A DNA stretch of 64,000 nucleotides, taken from Geothrix sp. 21YS21S-2 (lineage in GTDB: Bacteria > Acidobacteriota > Holophagae > Holophagales > Holophagaceae). The position numbers were made by a program, and so were the translations under genes. The notes below the pieces were generated by a model. It had not been told where the DNA came from. It did not search any database and worked only from the letters and a program-made list of their open reading frames with translations. The stretch is from positions 4,901,001-4,965,000 of the forward strand of contig NZ_CP132910.1 in NCBI RefSeq assembly GCF_030846775.1, given 5' to 3'. Below are positions 8,384 through 44,767 of the stretch, piece after piece. Within the stretch, counting starts at the first letter, position 1, and each line of letters opens with the position of its first letter.

Positions 8384-8441
8384 TGTAGGCCGCCAGAAGA
8401 ACAGGTAACACCTTGTCCAGCACCTTCACCCCAGTTCCAGG

Positions 8442-8861
8442 TCAGGGCTTGGTGTTGACGAGTCGCTTGATGCCCCCGTCTTTGAGGGGCCAGTTATGGA
8501 AATGGATCAGCAGGCCCGCTTTGGAGTTGGCGAAGTGGAGGCAACTGTTCAATTGGGCGAAGTCCGCGTCCGAAAACGTGGCGATGGCCTTTGCCTCGAT
8601 GACCCCTTTGTGGTCCGCGACGAGATCCATGATGTAGGCATTCTCGACGCACAAGCCCTTGTAGGTGATATCGAGGTGAACCTCGCGAAGGGCCTGGTGT
8701 CCGGCCAACCTGAGTTCATGGGCGAGGCAAGCCTTGCAGGCATTTTCCAGGAGTCCAGGCCCCAGAACGATCTGCACCCTGATGGCAGCGAGAATGATGG
8801 CTTCGGTGATATCCCGATGGGGATGGTTGTCGCCCCAATCTTCACCCCAATGCCGACCCAT
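8442..8861 (-). CDS. GxxExxY-family protein, altered motif
   Basis: 139 residues from the ATG at 8861 (GGGGGAGG just upstream); ATGs further upstream run into a hairpin repeat and are less likely. The order ITEAII..A, GPGLLENACKACL, YKGLCVENAYIMDLV, EAKAI and LKDGGIKRLV fits the GxxExxY family (PF13366, nuclease-fold-like). The naming motif here is GLLENAC: the Tyr is replaced by Cys. The D..V...EAK core is kept. Function in this family is unknown. It sits beside a giant hairpin and a broken transposase, suggesting the patch is mobile or decaying. Confidence 0.75.
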   Translation of the reverse strand: MGRHWGEDWGDNHPHRDITEAIILAAIRVQIVLGPGLLENACKACLAHELRLAGHQALREVHLDITYKGLCVENAYIMDLVADHKGVIEAKAIATFSDADFAQLNSCLHFANSKAGLLIHFHNWPLKDGGIKRLVNTKP

Positions 8862-8922
8862 GACCTCCCCCTTCGGGTCAGGCGTGCGCTCAACCATGGC
8901 GGGACGTTCAGGCCAGAATTCC

Positions 8923-9060
8923 TTCCTCGGTATCCTCGGCCTCCTCGGCGCCTCGGCGATGGCTTTCTCAAGCATCTGTCGGCGCAAAGATTACTTGCGC
9001 CGAAGCACCGTTCGAAAAGCCCATCGCCGAGGCGCCAAGGAGGCCGAGGATACCGAGGGA
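8923..9060. repeat. 138-nt giant hairpin with 40-bp arms
   Basis: Left arm 8923-8962 and right arm 9021-9060 are inverted copies matching at about 38 of 40 positions, built from CTCGG/CCGAG units. The 58-nt loop holds a second perfect hairpin: TCGGCGCAA (8979-8987), 7-nt loop, TTGCGCCGA (8995-9003). The arms share the CGCCGAGGCGCC..GAGG..CCGAGG theme with the arms at 22978-23061. It lies between the GxxExxY gene and the IS630 remnant. Confidence 0.85.
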
Positions 9061-9081
9061 AAGATAAAGGCAGGTTCGCCG

Positions 9082-9908
9082 TCAACCCTTGGCAGAGGCC
9101 GTCCGAATGGCCGCCAGGGCCTGCCGCGCTCGGGTCACCTTGGCGAGGATATCACTCGCGGACGCTGTCCAAACAAATGGTTTCGGATTGGCATTGTGTC
9201 TCGCGATATTGGTGTGGATCGGTACTTCGAGTTCCGGGACGGACCTAATTATGCCCCTGCGGATGCGGTTCTCCGTGATGTCCCGAAAAAATCGCTCCAC
9301 CCTGTTCAACCACGATGAACGGGTGGGGGTGACGTGAACGTGGACCCTCGGATGGTCTTTCAACCAGCTTTTGACCGCCGGATCGTACCCTCCAGCGTGG
9401 TCATGGCCGCAAAGAGGGTGGTCGTGCCATTGCGCTTGCAGTCGTGCGTCATGGTGCCGCAGCGACCTTTCTTCATCGGTAGGCCAGGCTGAGTCCGGTC
9501 CAGGGCCTGGATCTGGCTCTTCTCGTCTACGCTCACCCCGGTGGCCTGCGCCATGGAGGCCCGACTCCAGTGCGTGGCATTGACGGGCTGTTCCTGCGTT
9601 GTCTTCTGGAGCACCTCTTGCCCTTTCAAGGCGATCACCCAAGACTTCCGGCCTCGACCTGGGCGTTCCCTCTCGAGACCCTCGAAGCCCGCTTCCTCCC
9701 ATCGCTTGAGGCATTGCCAAGCGGTCCGATGATCGCAGCCCAAAGCCTGGCCGATGTCGCGAAAGGACTCGCCGGAAGCTCGATGAAGAACGATCTTGGC
9801 CCGCAGCACCCTGCGTGCAGACAACGTCCGGCTCCGCGCCATTTCCTCAAGCCGTCTGAATTGCTCCCCAGTTAAATCAACTCGCCCCACTTGCACCAAA
9901 TCTCTCAC
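9082..9908 (-). pseudogene. IS630-family transposase remnant, frameshifted and internally deleted
   Basis: Starting at 9908, the first part encodes an N-terminal helix-turn-helix (DHRTAWQCLKRW) and the first catalytic region GVSVDEKSQIQAL with its Asp, up to FAAMTTLEGT. The frame then shifts, and the other frame resumes with PAVKSWLKDHPR, TPTRSSWLNRVERFF and the C-terminal tail PKPFVWTASASDIL. The section that normally carries the second Asp (the LDN.ATHKHP region) is missing, so the copy cannot be active. I could not identify terminal inverted repeats. It abuts the giant hairpin. Confidence 0.9.
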
Positions 9909-10001
9909 CTGCCACTTGGATGCGACGAGATGAATTGGCCTTACACGTATTTCTGGCGGCCTGCACCAGGGGGTTCGCGAACGCAGGCCCCTGGGCCCGG
10001 C

Positions 10002-22284: not shown

Positions 22285-22854
22285 ATGGATCTGAGCCGCT
22301 TTCTGGAACTGGCGCGCAACCACGGCTGGCAGGGCCTGTCGCTGTGGGGCGTGCTGCTGTGGCAGGCCCTCCTGTGGGTGGGACTGGTGCGCCTGCACCT
22401 GGCCCTGCACCGCGAGGAGGCCCCCTGGGAGGAGTGCGTCGGCAAGATCCGCTCCGCCTTCCTGCGCAAGGTCAACGGCGAGGAGGAACTGGCCGAGCTG
22501 AAGGTGCACAACTACGCCCCCCTGGTGGACCTGCTCGTGGCGCTCAACTTCGCCGAGGCCAAGACCCCCGTGATGGAGCGTTGGCTCCTGCTCAAGTGGA
22601 AGACCCAGGAGTGCCTGCGCCCCTACTGGATCCGCTGGGGCCACCTGCTCATCGCGTTCGGCGTGGTGGTGTGGTTCCTGTACGGCCTGCGCATCGACCT
22701 GGGCCTGGAGCCGCTCAAGCGCACCCCCTGCGACCCGCGGCTGCTATGGGTGTGGCTGGGCTACGCCATGATCCTGGCGTGGAAGCTGGTGCGCCTGCAC
22801 GGGAACCTGGAACGGGTCCAGAGGAGCCTCATCCTGCCGCGGCGGGACGAATGA
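22285..22854 (+). CDS. membrane protein of unknown function
   Basis: 189 residues with three hydrophobic segments: near the N-terminus (LWGVLLWQALLWVGLV), in the middle (LLIAFGVVVWFLYGL) and near the C-terminus (LLWVWLGYAMILAW). The stretch between the first two is acidic and helical. It begins 3 nt after the SirB1-like gene and is the last gene before the repeat element at 22880. I recognise no family. Confidence 0.8.
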   Translation: MDLSRFLELARNHGWQGLSLWGVLLWQALLWVGLVRLHLALHREEAPWEECVGKIRSAFLRKVNGEEELAELKVHNYAPLVDLLVALNFAEAKTPVMERWLLLKWKTQECLRPYWIRWGHLLIAFGVVVWFLYGLRIDLGLEPLKRTPCDPRLLWVWLGYAMILAWKLVRLHGNLERVQRSLILPRRDE

Positions 22855-22879
22855 CTTTTGGGTTCCTCTCGGATCCGGG

Positions 22880-23139
22880 GGTAGACCCTGACCGGGCCTG
22901 GTCTGGTGTCGAATGACGTCGCATTGTCTTTTCGCGGCCTGGATCGCGAAGATCGGCACCGCCCCTGAAAATGCCTGTCGCCGAGGCGCCGAGGAGCCGA
23001 GGATCGCCGAGAAGGGAAACTGCATTTCTCGGCGATCCTCGGCTCCTCGGCGCCTCGGCGATAGGTCTTTCTCCCGAACCTGACGAATCGCAGGGATAAA
23101 GGGTTGGCAACAGATGAAATCAGTCATCCTGGGTCTGCC
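22880..23139. mobile_element. MITE-like palindromic element, intact copy
   Basis: About 260 nt of non-coding DNA between convergent genes. It is bounded by short inverted ends: GGTAGACCC (22880-22888) and GGGTCTGCC (23131-23139), which pair at 8 of 9 positions. A left flank (to about 22960), a perfect central palindrome (22978-23061) and a right flank follow. Both flanks recur around 43282-43347 and 44585-44707. No transposase is encoded, so if it moved it did so in trans. The nearby IS630 remnant is one conceivable source, which is speculation. Confidence 0.7.
22978..23061. repeat. perfect 36-bp inverted repeat, core of the MITE-like element
   Basis: Arms 22978-23013 and 23026-23061 are exact inverted copies with a 12-nt loop. 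They consist of CGCCGAGG-type units like the hairpin at 8923-9060. Between convergent genes it could also act as a bidirectional transcription barrier. Confidence 0.9.
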
Positions 23140-23148
23140 GAAGACTCT

Positions 23149-24189
23149 TTATCCTTTTTCCAGTCTCCCTATCGCCGCCACGAACGATGCCGCGTCCTCC
23201 GGCATCGAGTCCCACGCGCACATCCAGCGCACCAGGCCCGCGCGTTCGTCCCAGGGCCAGAAGAAGGTCTCGGCCTGCAGGGGCGCCAGCATCGGCACGG
23301 GAATCCTGGCGAAGACGGCGTTGGCCTCCACCGGGAAGGCCACCTGGACGCTGGGGAGGTCCTTCACCGCGGCCTCCAGGGCCGTGGCCGCGGCATTGGC
23401 CCTGCGGCCGTTCTCGATCCAGAGGCCGTCCTCCAGGAGGGCCTCGAACTGCGCGGCGGTGAAGCGCATCTTGGAGGCCAGCTGCATGGCGTGCTTCTGG
23501 TGGTAGGGATAGTCGGGACCCAGGCCGGGCTTGAGGAAGACGACGGCCTCCCCGCCCAGCATGCCCTGCTTGGTGCCGCCGAAGCTCAGGGCGTCCACGC
23601 CCGCCAGCATCTCGCAGGCGGACACCCCCGCGGAGGCCACGGCGCAGCCCAGGCGCGCCCCGTCCACGTGCACGCCCAGGCCGTGGGCGTGGGCCAGGTC
23701 CACCAGGGTGGCGAGCTCGGCCACGGTGTAGACCGTCCCCAGCTCCGTGGGCTGGGTGATGGTGAGGGCGACCGGAACCGCGCCGTGCACGCCGTGGGCG
23801 CGGCCCAGGGCCTCCGCCAGGGCCCCGGGGTCGATCTTCCCGTCCACGGAGCGCAGGGGGACGAGCCGCATGCCCAGGAACCGCTCGGGGGCCGTGCTCT
23901 CGTCGTTGCAGAGGTGCGCCACGTCCGAGCAGAGCACGGCCCCGTAGGGCCTGGCGAAGGCCATGAGCGCCGTCACGTTGGCGCCGGTGCCGTTGAAGAC
24001 GAAGTGGGTGGCCACCTCCCGCCCTAAGAGCGCGTCGAAGGCGGCCCGGGCCCGGGCGGTCACGGCGTCCTCCCCGTAGGCCATGGCGTGGCCGTGGTTG
24101 CAGGCCTGGATGGCGTCCATGATCCGGGGGTGGACCCCCGCGAAGTTGTCGCTGGCGAAACCGCGGGGGAAGGCGTCGGGTGCGTGCAA
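23149..24189 (-). CDS. ltaE: low-specificity L-threonine aldolase
   Basis: 346 residues; a PLP enzyme splitting threonine or allo-threonine into glycine and acetaldehyde. The start FASDNFAGVHP, the VHVDGARLG aspartate and the PLP lysine in SFGGTKQGML fit the family. The C-terminal part is ordinary. It follows ribA by 12 nt, at the end of a long minus-strand run. The gene symbol is by family; the specificity is not proven. Confidence 0.9.
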   Translation of the reverse strand: MHAPDAFPRGFASDNFAGVHPRIMDAIQACNHGHAMAYGEDAVTARARAAFDALLGREVATHFVFNGTGANVTALMAFARPYGAVLCSDVAHLCNDESTAPERFLGMRLVPLRSVDGKIDPGALAEALGRAHGVHGAVPVALTITQPTELGTVYTVAELATLVDLAHAHGLGVHVDGARLGCAVASAGVSACEMLAGVDALSFGGTKQGMLGGEAVVFLKPGLGPDYPYHQKHAMQLASKMRFTAAQFEALLEDGLWIENGRRANAAATALEAAVKDLPSVQVAFPVEANAVFARIPVPMLAPLQAETFFWPWDERAGLVRWMCAWDSMPEDAASFVAAIGRLEKG

Positions 24190-43135: not shown

Positions 43136-43281
43136 CATGGACTCGGCTTGGGATTTACAGGCATTATCTCTCCGGGCGTGCGATCAAACTGAATCTGAAA
43201 ATCATATTGATGTAACTAGGGGCCTTCCACGGGCCGGGGGCACTATGAACCTCGCCTAATTGGTCCTTCTCGGAGTAGGGG

Positions 43282-43347
43282 GGCAGATCCTGGCCGCGCC
43301 TGGTTTTCGGGCCTGGTTCGGTATCGAATGACGTCGCAAGGTCTTTT
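43282..43347. mobile_element. left half of a second MITE-like element
   Basis: GGCAGATCC (43282-43290) matches the left end of the copy at 22880. The block TATCGAATGACGTCGC (43322-43337) through GTCTTTT (43341-43347) repeats 22908-22932 closely. It has an 11-nt extra piece relative to the intact copy. After GTCTTTT the similarity stops, and the Rrf2/methyltransferase cassette begins. Confidence 0.8.
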
Positions 43348-43420
43348 GTCCTGCGTCGGCAAGGGTGCGCAACGTTCCAGACCCGGCTGAGGGGATTCGC
43401 GACGAATTCACTCAACGCGG

Positions 43421-43449
43421 TTGATACTTGGCGCATTACGTAATACAAT
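43421..43449 (+). promoter_or_regulatory. sigma-70 promoter with palindromic operator for the rrf2 gene
   Basis: -35 TTGATA (43421-43426), 17-nt spacer, -10 TACAAT (43444-43449): near-consensus. A perfect 10-bp palindrome ATTACGTAAT (43435-43444) occupies the spacer and touches the -10, as an autoregulatory operator would. The start point falls within about 1-2 nt of the ATG at 43457, so the message is probably leaderless. Confidence 0.75.
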
Positions 43450-43456
43450 AACTTAC

Positions 43457-43918
43457 ATGAGACGAGATAGCCGATTATCCGGAGTCCTCCACGTCCTACT
43501 CCACATGGCGCAGCAGGGTGCCCCTCTGACTTCGGAAGTCCTGGCGAAAGCACTGAACACCAATCCCGTGGTGATCCGCCAGATCATGGCTGGCCTTCGG
43601 AACGCGGGGTACGTCCGATCGGAAAAGGGACATGGCGGTGGCTGGACGCTGGCCTGCGGCCTATCGAAGGTGACTCTGCGCGATGTGTACAATGCGCTTG
43701 GCTGCCCTTCGCTACTCGCCATCGGCAACCGCACGGATGCGCCCGGCTGCCTTGTCGAACAGACCGTAAATGCCGTACTAAATAAGTCATTTCAGGATGC
43801 GGAGGCGCTGCTGCTTTCGCGCCTTGGCGAGGTGACACTCGCGGCGCTGAGCGCCGACGTTTGCAAACGCCTTGCTGCCCGTGGCGGATCACCTCATCTG
43901 GAGACGAGCCATGCCTAG
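43457..43918 (+). CDS. Rrf2-family transcriptional regulator
   Basis: 153 residues. The winged helix spans about 5-66 with [20 protein letters not shown] and [13 protein letters not shown]. Three Cys occur (C67, C83, C98), but not in the tight cluster of the iron-sulfur members (IscR, NsrR), so it looks closer to the YwnA-like subgroup. There is no ribosome site before the ATG at 43457, consistent with a leaderless message. GC and codon use are visibly lower than in neighbours. It is followed by a methyltransferase, and both lie inside a split repeat element, suggesting acquisition by transfer. Confidence 0.9.
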
Positions 43919-43953
43919 ACCCATTCACCACCGAAGCAAGGGCCGGGATTGAT

Positions 43954-44583
43954 ATGACTGAATTCTGGGAAACGGCTTTTACTGAGAAGCAACTGATATG
44001 GGGAAACGAGCCGACCGCCTCCGCCAACCTCGCGAGCGATTACTTCGCTCGAATGGGCATCAAGGATGTCCTTATCCCCGGGGTAGGGTACGGCAGGAAC
44101 GCCAAGGGGTTCCTGGATCGCGGGATGTCCGTCACCGGGATCGAGATCTCTGACACGGCGATCTCTCTCGCCCGTTCCCAGCTCGGCCTTCAGATCCCCA
44201 TCCACCACGGCTCGGTAGCGGACATGCCGTACGACAGCAGGCCGTACGATGGCATCTTCTGCTATGGACTCATCCATCTCCTGGATCCAGCGGGACGTGC
44301 AAAGCTCATCCAGGACTGCTACCGACAGCTCGCGCCAGGCGGGCACATGATTTTCACCGTCATCTCGAAGAAAGCGCCGATGTATGGGCAAGGAGAAAGG
44401 CTGGGCGAGGATTGGTACGAGAGAGGACCCGGCCTGCAGATGTTTTTTTACGACACCGGTTCGGTTGAGCGGGAGTTCGGTCCGCACGGGTTGGTCGCGC
44501 TCTCCGAGATCGATGAGCTGATGCCGGGCGGTGGCTCTTTCCCGTTCATCAACGTGTTTTGCATGAAGGGCGAAATGACGTGA
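43954..44583 (+). CDS. class I SAM-dependent methyltransferase
   Basis: 209 residues from the ATG at 43954 (GGGA upstream). SAM motif I is [12 protein letters not shown] (39-50), with an acidic end to the next strand in [21 protein letters not shown] and [16 protein letters not shown]. It resembles a family of small methyltransferases of unknown substrate found with YwnA-like Rrf2 regulators in other phyla; that recollection was not checked. Its stop codon falls exactly where the right half of the split repeat begins. Lower GC than neighbours. Confidence 0.88.
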
Positions 44584-44584
44584 A

Positions 44585-44707
44585 CATCGTGAGGCATCGG
44601 CACGTTTTCGCGAAAATCAGCGCCGGCGCTAGGTTCTTCTCCCGAACCTGACGAATCGCTGGGATGAAGGGTCGGCCCCAGATGAATTCAGTCCTCCCGG
44701 GTCTGTC
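44585..44707. mobile_element. right half of the second MITE-like element
   Basis: From ATCGTGAGGCATCGGCAC (44586-44603) onward the sequence follows 22943-23139 with gaps. CTCCCGAACCTGACGAATCG (44639-44658) is identical to the intact copy, and the end GGGTCTGTC (44699-44707) matches its right end. The long central palindrome is reduced to AGCGCCGGCGCT, a perfect 12-nt palindrome (44620-44631). Confidence 0.85.
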
Positions 44708-44767
44708 GGAAATCCATGAAGACCCGTTTACTTTGGTATCCTTGGCGGCATCCCCCGGAGATGCCCC

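Follow-up and report, generated by a model that had tools for sequence, protein, structure and literature searches.

A probable ISL3 remnant in Geothrix sp. 21YS21S-2 and the hairpin arm it shares with insertion sequences and intergenic repeats

Introduction

Several described systems resemble the locus studied here, and the comparisons below refer to the available portions of the cited reports. In Microcystis aeruginosa, a 187-nt MITE is linked to ISL3 and associated with 8-nt direct repeats (PMC11448079). ISPpu12a is an ISL3 element with extra open reading frames (PMC4133298), and the transposase of ISPpu9 is under the control of a 5'-UTR structure and small RNAs (PMC8450116). ISL3-derived MITEs (PMC11448079) and ISL3 elements with cargo (PMC4133298) are already in print.

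Here we analyse E1, a palindrome-bearing element of approximately 280-300 bp from Geothrix sp. 21YS21S-2. The analysed stretch, referred to as the window, comprises 64,000 nt (NZ_CP132910.1, positions 4,901,001 to 4,965,000), and the genome it comes from, G000, is a 5.25-Mb single contig. A preliminary description of E1 knew of no named family with such a build; a comparable ISL3-linked stem-loop MITE is on record from Microcystis (PMC11448079).

Results

E1 carries a palindrome between two convergent genes, a setting that had been described correctly. The features of the locus are as follows.

ends at 22854, plus strand: 189-aa open reading frame, left neighbour of E1
22861-22881, plus strand: left terminal inverted repeat of E1, ISL3-type, GGTTCCTCTCGGATCCGGGGG; rank 12 of 127,968 with a PWM of ISL3 ends
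22880-22888, plus strand: GGTAGACCC, subterminal 9-mer, previously taken for the left end
22893-22973, plus strand: left flank of E1, 91% identical to E2 over 78 nt; its first 40 nt also in E3 (88%)
22974-23013, minus strand: left hairpin arm, U', pairing with 23026-23065
23014-23025, no strand assigned: hairpin loop, 12 nt
23026-23065, plus strand: right hairpin arm, U, head-to-head with the left arm
23066-23139, plus strand: right flank of E1, homologous to the ISL3 leader and shared with E2 (90%) and E3 (87%)
23140-23159, no strand assigned: candidate right border region, with host sequence from 23160 by comparison with the relative G005
23149-24189, minus strand: beta-eliminating-lyase/aldolase-like gene, right neighbour of E1

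The palindrome at 22974-23065 is perfect over 36 bp, and its 40-bp arms differ by one mismatch (G.U in RNA), which lies outside the inner 36 bp of the stem and is followed by three further pairs. Folded as DNA, the 92-nt hairpin reached -57.6 kcal/mol, compared with a mean of -20.2 for shuffled sequences (z -14.8; equalled by 0 of 200 shuffles), and RNA folding of the 281-nt E1 region gave a z of -9.4. The hairpin was not called by a terminator scan and has no U-run 3' of its stem, and for the latter reason it is not a standard terminator; the scan made two weak terminator-like calls in the E1 region, neither involving the hairpin. An Rfam scan returned seven matches at E<=1, every one under its gathering threshold. 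The preliminary description had placed the perfect core and two flanking 9-mers where we find them, but its reading of GGTAGACCC and GGGTCTGCC as the ends of the element did not hold. GGGTCTGCC, at 23131-23139, is inverted relative to GGTAGACCC and matches it at eight of nine positions, and the similarity of E1 to E3 and to ISL3 ends extends left past GGTAGACCC to 22861.

When E1 was used as a DNA query against G000, 116 matches were obtained at E<=10. The flanks without the hairpin scored strongly at three places only in this genome: E1 itself, a second E1-like copy, E2 (C1:4651622-4651859), and E3 in the same window. Both flanks and an identical right breakpoint, GGGTCTG, are common to all three, while GGTAGACCC is absent at the left of E2. 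The genome thus contains further copies with shared ends, and the multi-copy repeats found bear out the earlier proposal of a MITE- or REP-like family rather than a simple terminator.

Five of the places found with E1, at 75% over 168 bp, were copies of one 1,563-bp insertion sequence (IS). Its transposase belongs to the ISL3 family (NF033550, E 4.6e-99; PF01610, E 2e-65). The five G000 copies are more than 99% alike, have the terminal inverted repeat GGTTCTTCACGGATTT and 8-bp target repeats, and carry the hairpin at the identical position, with the left terminal repeat on one side of it and the transposase gene on the other. The hairpin and right flank of E1 aligned with positions 122-298 of the IS at 74% (E 2.5e-28). 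With the IS as query, alignments covered IS 122-289 in E2 and IS 204-311 in E3; when the hairpin was masked, E2 matched ISL3 weakly (E 0.005). The right flank of E1 alone scored 19 against the IS leader (maximum of 500 shuffles, 15), and the left flank alone scored 14 against the left flank of the IS, which is not significant (shuffle maximum 19). An exact 30-mer of the right flank had 0 matches in a contig collection from which the own genome was possibly excluded. As a side observation, a second element, about 2.4 kb long, splits two of the five copies, at a different point in each (L031:4218-6636 and L034:4622-7040).

We scored ends over 127,968 positions of the window with a PWM 17 nt wide, derived from 14 ISL3 ends other than those of E1 and E3. 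Besides the left end of E1, both ends of E3 ranked near the top (left, 43262, plus strand, rank 4; right, 44725, minus strand, rank 2). At the right of E1, the minus strand at 23150-23159 scored below background, and we term E1 a remnant rather than an intact MITE because a matching right terminal repeat is absent. The best candidate for an E1 target repeat matches at six of eight positions (GACTTTTG/GACTCTTT), which 27% of chance trials reach as well. The preliminary description had also proposed a check for matches to IS630-type or other transposase ends. IS630 ends in G000 read GTAGGCCGCCAGAA and lie at CTAG; E1 has neither GTAGGCCGCCAGAA nor a CTAG target, and the related transposase is that of ISL3.

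Other ISL3 derivatives without transposase were present in G000. L112 is an internally deleted derivative of 365 bp that joins IS 3-277 to IS 1475-1563 and keeps both ends; it is flanked on both sides by CTTATTTT, an 8-bp target duplication that is perfect but for an additional T in the left copy. L098, L099, L095, L109 and L119 are left-end pieces lacking the transposase, and the insertions at L098 and L109 come after the T-run closing a host terminator-like hairpin. A search for an autonomous partner combining the left flank of E1 and E3 with a transposase found none in G000, where the ISL3 transposases are those of the five known copies only. In relatives, the ISL3 elements of G013 (1,323 bp) and G010 (1,326 bp) do not have the extra approximately 237-240 bp that bears the hairpin; in these elements, as in two left ends of G007, the terminal inverted repeat passes directly into the leader, with no hairpin.

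E3 is a transposase-less element with ISL3-type ends that carries two genes.

43262-44725, plus strand: E3, between two divergent host genes
43457-43918, plus strand: Rrf2-family regulator gene in E3 (Pfam PF02082, E 8.6e-31)
43954-44583, plus strand: class I SAM-dependent methyltransferase gene in E3 (Pfam PF13649, E 1.5e-15)

The flanks of E3 match as a target repeat at five of eight positions, with a chance expectation of about 5%. As a query, E3 matched four of 100 genomes at E<=0.001, namely G000 and three others, in which the matches (query 295-349) fall in the Rrf2 gene region.

We then compared occupied and empty sites in relatives. Among 60 relatives, five matched E1 at E<=0.001, G000 included, and the matches listed beyond G000 cover the hairpin part only. 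The E1 locus itself differs in G005, a genome of the same genus (330 contigs, 83% complete).

22851-23159, no strand assigned: 309-bp stretch at the E1 locus, in place of which G005 has 7 nt

In G005 the genes flanking E1 are 95-98% identical and are separated by GTAGCCG only. As a member of a multi-copy set, E1 is more simply read as an insertion in its own lineage after the split from G005, but G005 could instead have lost it. E2 is absent at its site in both G005 and G002. These carry other sequence there, with no clean empty site in either, and the site looks like a variable locus. In G005 it holds an extra gene (L163:533-2176) encoding a 547-aa protein with a serine-rich tail. One tail-to-tail site (copies of this kind are described below) is unoccupied in G002, where about 28 nt stand against 170 bp in a compared stretch of 15 kb. 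For a 20-kb stretch containing three such copies, relatives yielded distant matches only and no empty site.

The arm of the hairpin proved to be far more widespread than E1. A sequence-only model built from 33 arms was used to search 41 genomes at E<=0.001, with up to 139 candidates scored in each genome, which yielded at least 121 matches in G000, at least 54 in G003, at least six in G004, at least three each in G002 and G007, at least two in G001 and at least one each in G005, G009, G017 and G023. No match at this threshold was obtained in the other 31 of the 41 genomes. A 25-mer of the arm matched one contig, from Holophagaceae bacterium UBA706 (own genome possibly excluded), and searches of the open-access literature, which omits most subscription journals, turned up no description of this family. 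The 113 arm matches listed for G000 fall into 65 loci. Among these are 34 tail-to-tail pairs (spacing 46-57 in 33 and 0 in one), 12 head-to-head pairs (spacing 1-9 in model coordinates) and 18 single arms; one further locus has three arms, including the head-to-head pair of an IS copy, which brings the head-to-head total to 13. Eleven of these 13 hairpins are ISL3-type (the five IS copies, E1, E2, L098, L099, L112 and L119). The remaining two, L213 and L214, have no ISL3 flank and have different long inverted ends in common. A single arm does not fold: four arms gave z values of -0.9 to 0.1 relative to shuffles.

Some of these loci showed further particularities. At L213:1286-1577 and L214:1243-1546 the head-to-head hairpin sits in a palindromic element, some 300 bp long, whose inverted ends are GGGTGGGCCGGCCCTTCGGATGA. 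At L031:3333-3383, a further single arm directly adjoins one ISL3 insertion, which suggests that the IS at L031 landed beside or within an already present palindrome. Away from the arm family, L120-L124 hold, besides a fragment, four Y1_Tnp (IS200-like) genes that resemble one another; an in-frame TAG is present in three of the four.

We next consider the tail-to-tail copies, eight of which (of 34) sit in an IS630-family element. One copy of this element lies in the window.

8385-9964, minus strand: IS630-family element, a diverged copy of a multi-copy IS, with a GxxExxY gene, a transposase remnant and a tail-to-tail palindrome
8926-9057, no strand assigned: tail-to-tail arm pair inside the IS630 element, one of the eight

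The IS630 element carries the same arm as E1 in the opposite arrangement. Its GxxExxY gene encodes a PD-(D/E)XK protein, and its transposase is broken. Seven near-identical copies with the same palindrome are found elsewhere in the genome, as is a fragment at L238.

Outside IS630, 26 tail-to-tail loci remained, a count that leaves out the single-arm locus L089 (convergent). Seventeen lie between convergent genes and nine between genes of the same direction, with none in divergent gaps and none inside genes; gene context came from a custom codon-usage gene caller, not all of whose calls are strong (the right gene at L093 is one of a few weak ones). Of the intergenic bases in sampled DNA, 15% lie in convergent gaps and 37% in divergent ones, which gives P values of 1e-8 for the convergent excess and 7e-6 for the absence from divergent gaps (26 loci; some of the elements themselves are part of the sample). 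Both called stop codons are at most 15 nt from the palindrome at 13 of the 17 convergent loci.

Across 16 tail-to-tail elements, changes on both sides were seen in 17 of 40 pairs, 95.2% of cells pair, and none of the measures was reached by any of 500 shuffles. Arms within an element were more alike (mean 0.88) than arms of different elements (0.75), a difference reached in 0 of 300 permutations. This pattern fits selection for pairing or palindrome-directed repair. Seven head-to-head hairpins showed one compensatory pair. The perfect arms of E1 had been read as a sign of recent origin or strong selection. Because arms are alike within an element and compensatory changes are frequent among the 16 tail-to-tail elements, perfect arms need not mean recency; they indicate a pairing that is maintained or repaired.

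Discussion

We conclude that E1 is probably a decayed, non-autonomous (MITE-like) derivative of an ISL3-family insertion sequence of the genus. What remains would be the terminal repeat of the left end and the non-coding leader with the hairpin inside it; the transposase gene would have been lost, and so, probably, would the terminal repeat of the right end. Its arrival, after the split from G005, was presumably mediated by ISL3 transposase acting in trans. For the hairpin we favour a predicted barrier role: RNA reading in from neighbouring genes would fold into a stem of roughly 40 bp ahead of the ISL3 transposase gene, and the stem would hinder transcription or translation of the transposase and may shield convergent neighbours.

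Other explanations share part of this evidence. A plain bidirectional terminator of two convergent host genes would suit an element only a few nucleotides from both convergent stops, with a strong hairpin and with relatives that lie between convergent genes in 17 of 26 tail-to-tail cases. We nevertheless consider it unlikely, given a stem that lacks a U-run and escapes the terminator scan, the recurrence of the same hairpin with its flanks elsewhere, also within a transposon, and the absence of E1 from the orthologous gap in G005. As a secondary function of an ISL3 derivative, termination by the E1 hairpin may occur.

The head-to-head and tail-to-tail dimers at discrete spacings resemble those of REPs (PMC3733652, as far as described there), and the bias of arm copies to intergenic, 3'-end positions would likewise fit a REP/BIME element mobilised by a REP-associated tyrosine transposase (RAYT). 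However, the single 40-nt unit is not a hairpin, the consensus of 33 arms contains neither a GTAG nor a CGTC tag, the five Y1_Tnp (PF01797) matches in the genome are all separated from the listed arm loci by over 5 kb, and E1 itself is flanked by ISL3 sequence, all of which makes RAYT mobilisation quite improbable. The idea that E1 is a stand-alone MITE with GGTAGACCC and GGGTCTGCC as its true ends draws on the inverted orientation of these 9-mers, with their one mismatch, and we hold it to be highly improbable: the left one is missing from E2 and is overrun by the similarity to E3 and ISL3 ends, and the right one aligns inside the ISL3 leader.

Beyond the proposed ISL3 origin of E1, the arm itself probably predates E1 and exists in addition as a REP-like family with two modes of pairing. 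The head-to-head mode is that of ISL3-type elements and of a third MITE, whereas tail-to-tail pairs occur in an IS630 element and where genes end convergently. ISL3, IS630 and this third element appear to have captured the same arm. It is conceivable, although we lean somewhat against it, that a 40-nt unit with two fixed topologies, at least three unrelated carriers (ISL3, IS630 and a MITE with GGGTGGGCCGGCCC ends) and punctuation of convergent gaps without a RAYT represents a new REP-like class. Its tail-to-tail form would fill small gaps between convergent stop codons, with compensatory change keeping the pairing.

The genome offers a clear case of one hairpin module common to unrelated insertion sequences and free intergenic repeats, and the empty sites in close relatives make the insertion rules of this module testable. 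Should the tail-to-tail copies function where genes converge, the 3'-end signals of no fewer than 17 gene pairs of a single genome would come from a mobile repeat. E3 adds a cargo-bearing ISL3 element without transposase from the same window.

Compared with the Microcystis MITE, as portrayed in the available text (PMC11448079), the elements described here are likewise non-autonomous, with a stem-loop and ISL3-matching ends, and a near-perfect 8-nt repeat is present at L112. E1 is, however, larger, only one of its ends is recognisable, and it carries the hairpin as an internal module common to other carriers rather than as a product of terminal repeats. Like ISPpu12a in the portion of its report at hand (PMC4133298), E3 is ISL3-type and carries genes beyond the needs of transposition, but it has no transposase and its cargo is an Rrf2 regulator and a methyltransferase. 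A structured leader upstream of the transposase gene recalls ISPpu9 (PMC8450116, available text), which is a different IS; in the ISL3 element of G000, control by the leader is a prediction. The arm family shares with the REP/BIME and REPIN repeats covered by the accessible account (PMC3733652) many intergenic copies, both dimer topologies and a 3'-end bias. Unlike the GTAG/CGTC families of that account, it consists of a tagless 40-nt unit that does not fold alone and has no RAYT nearby.
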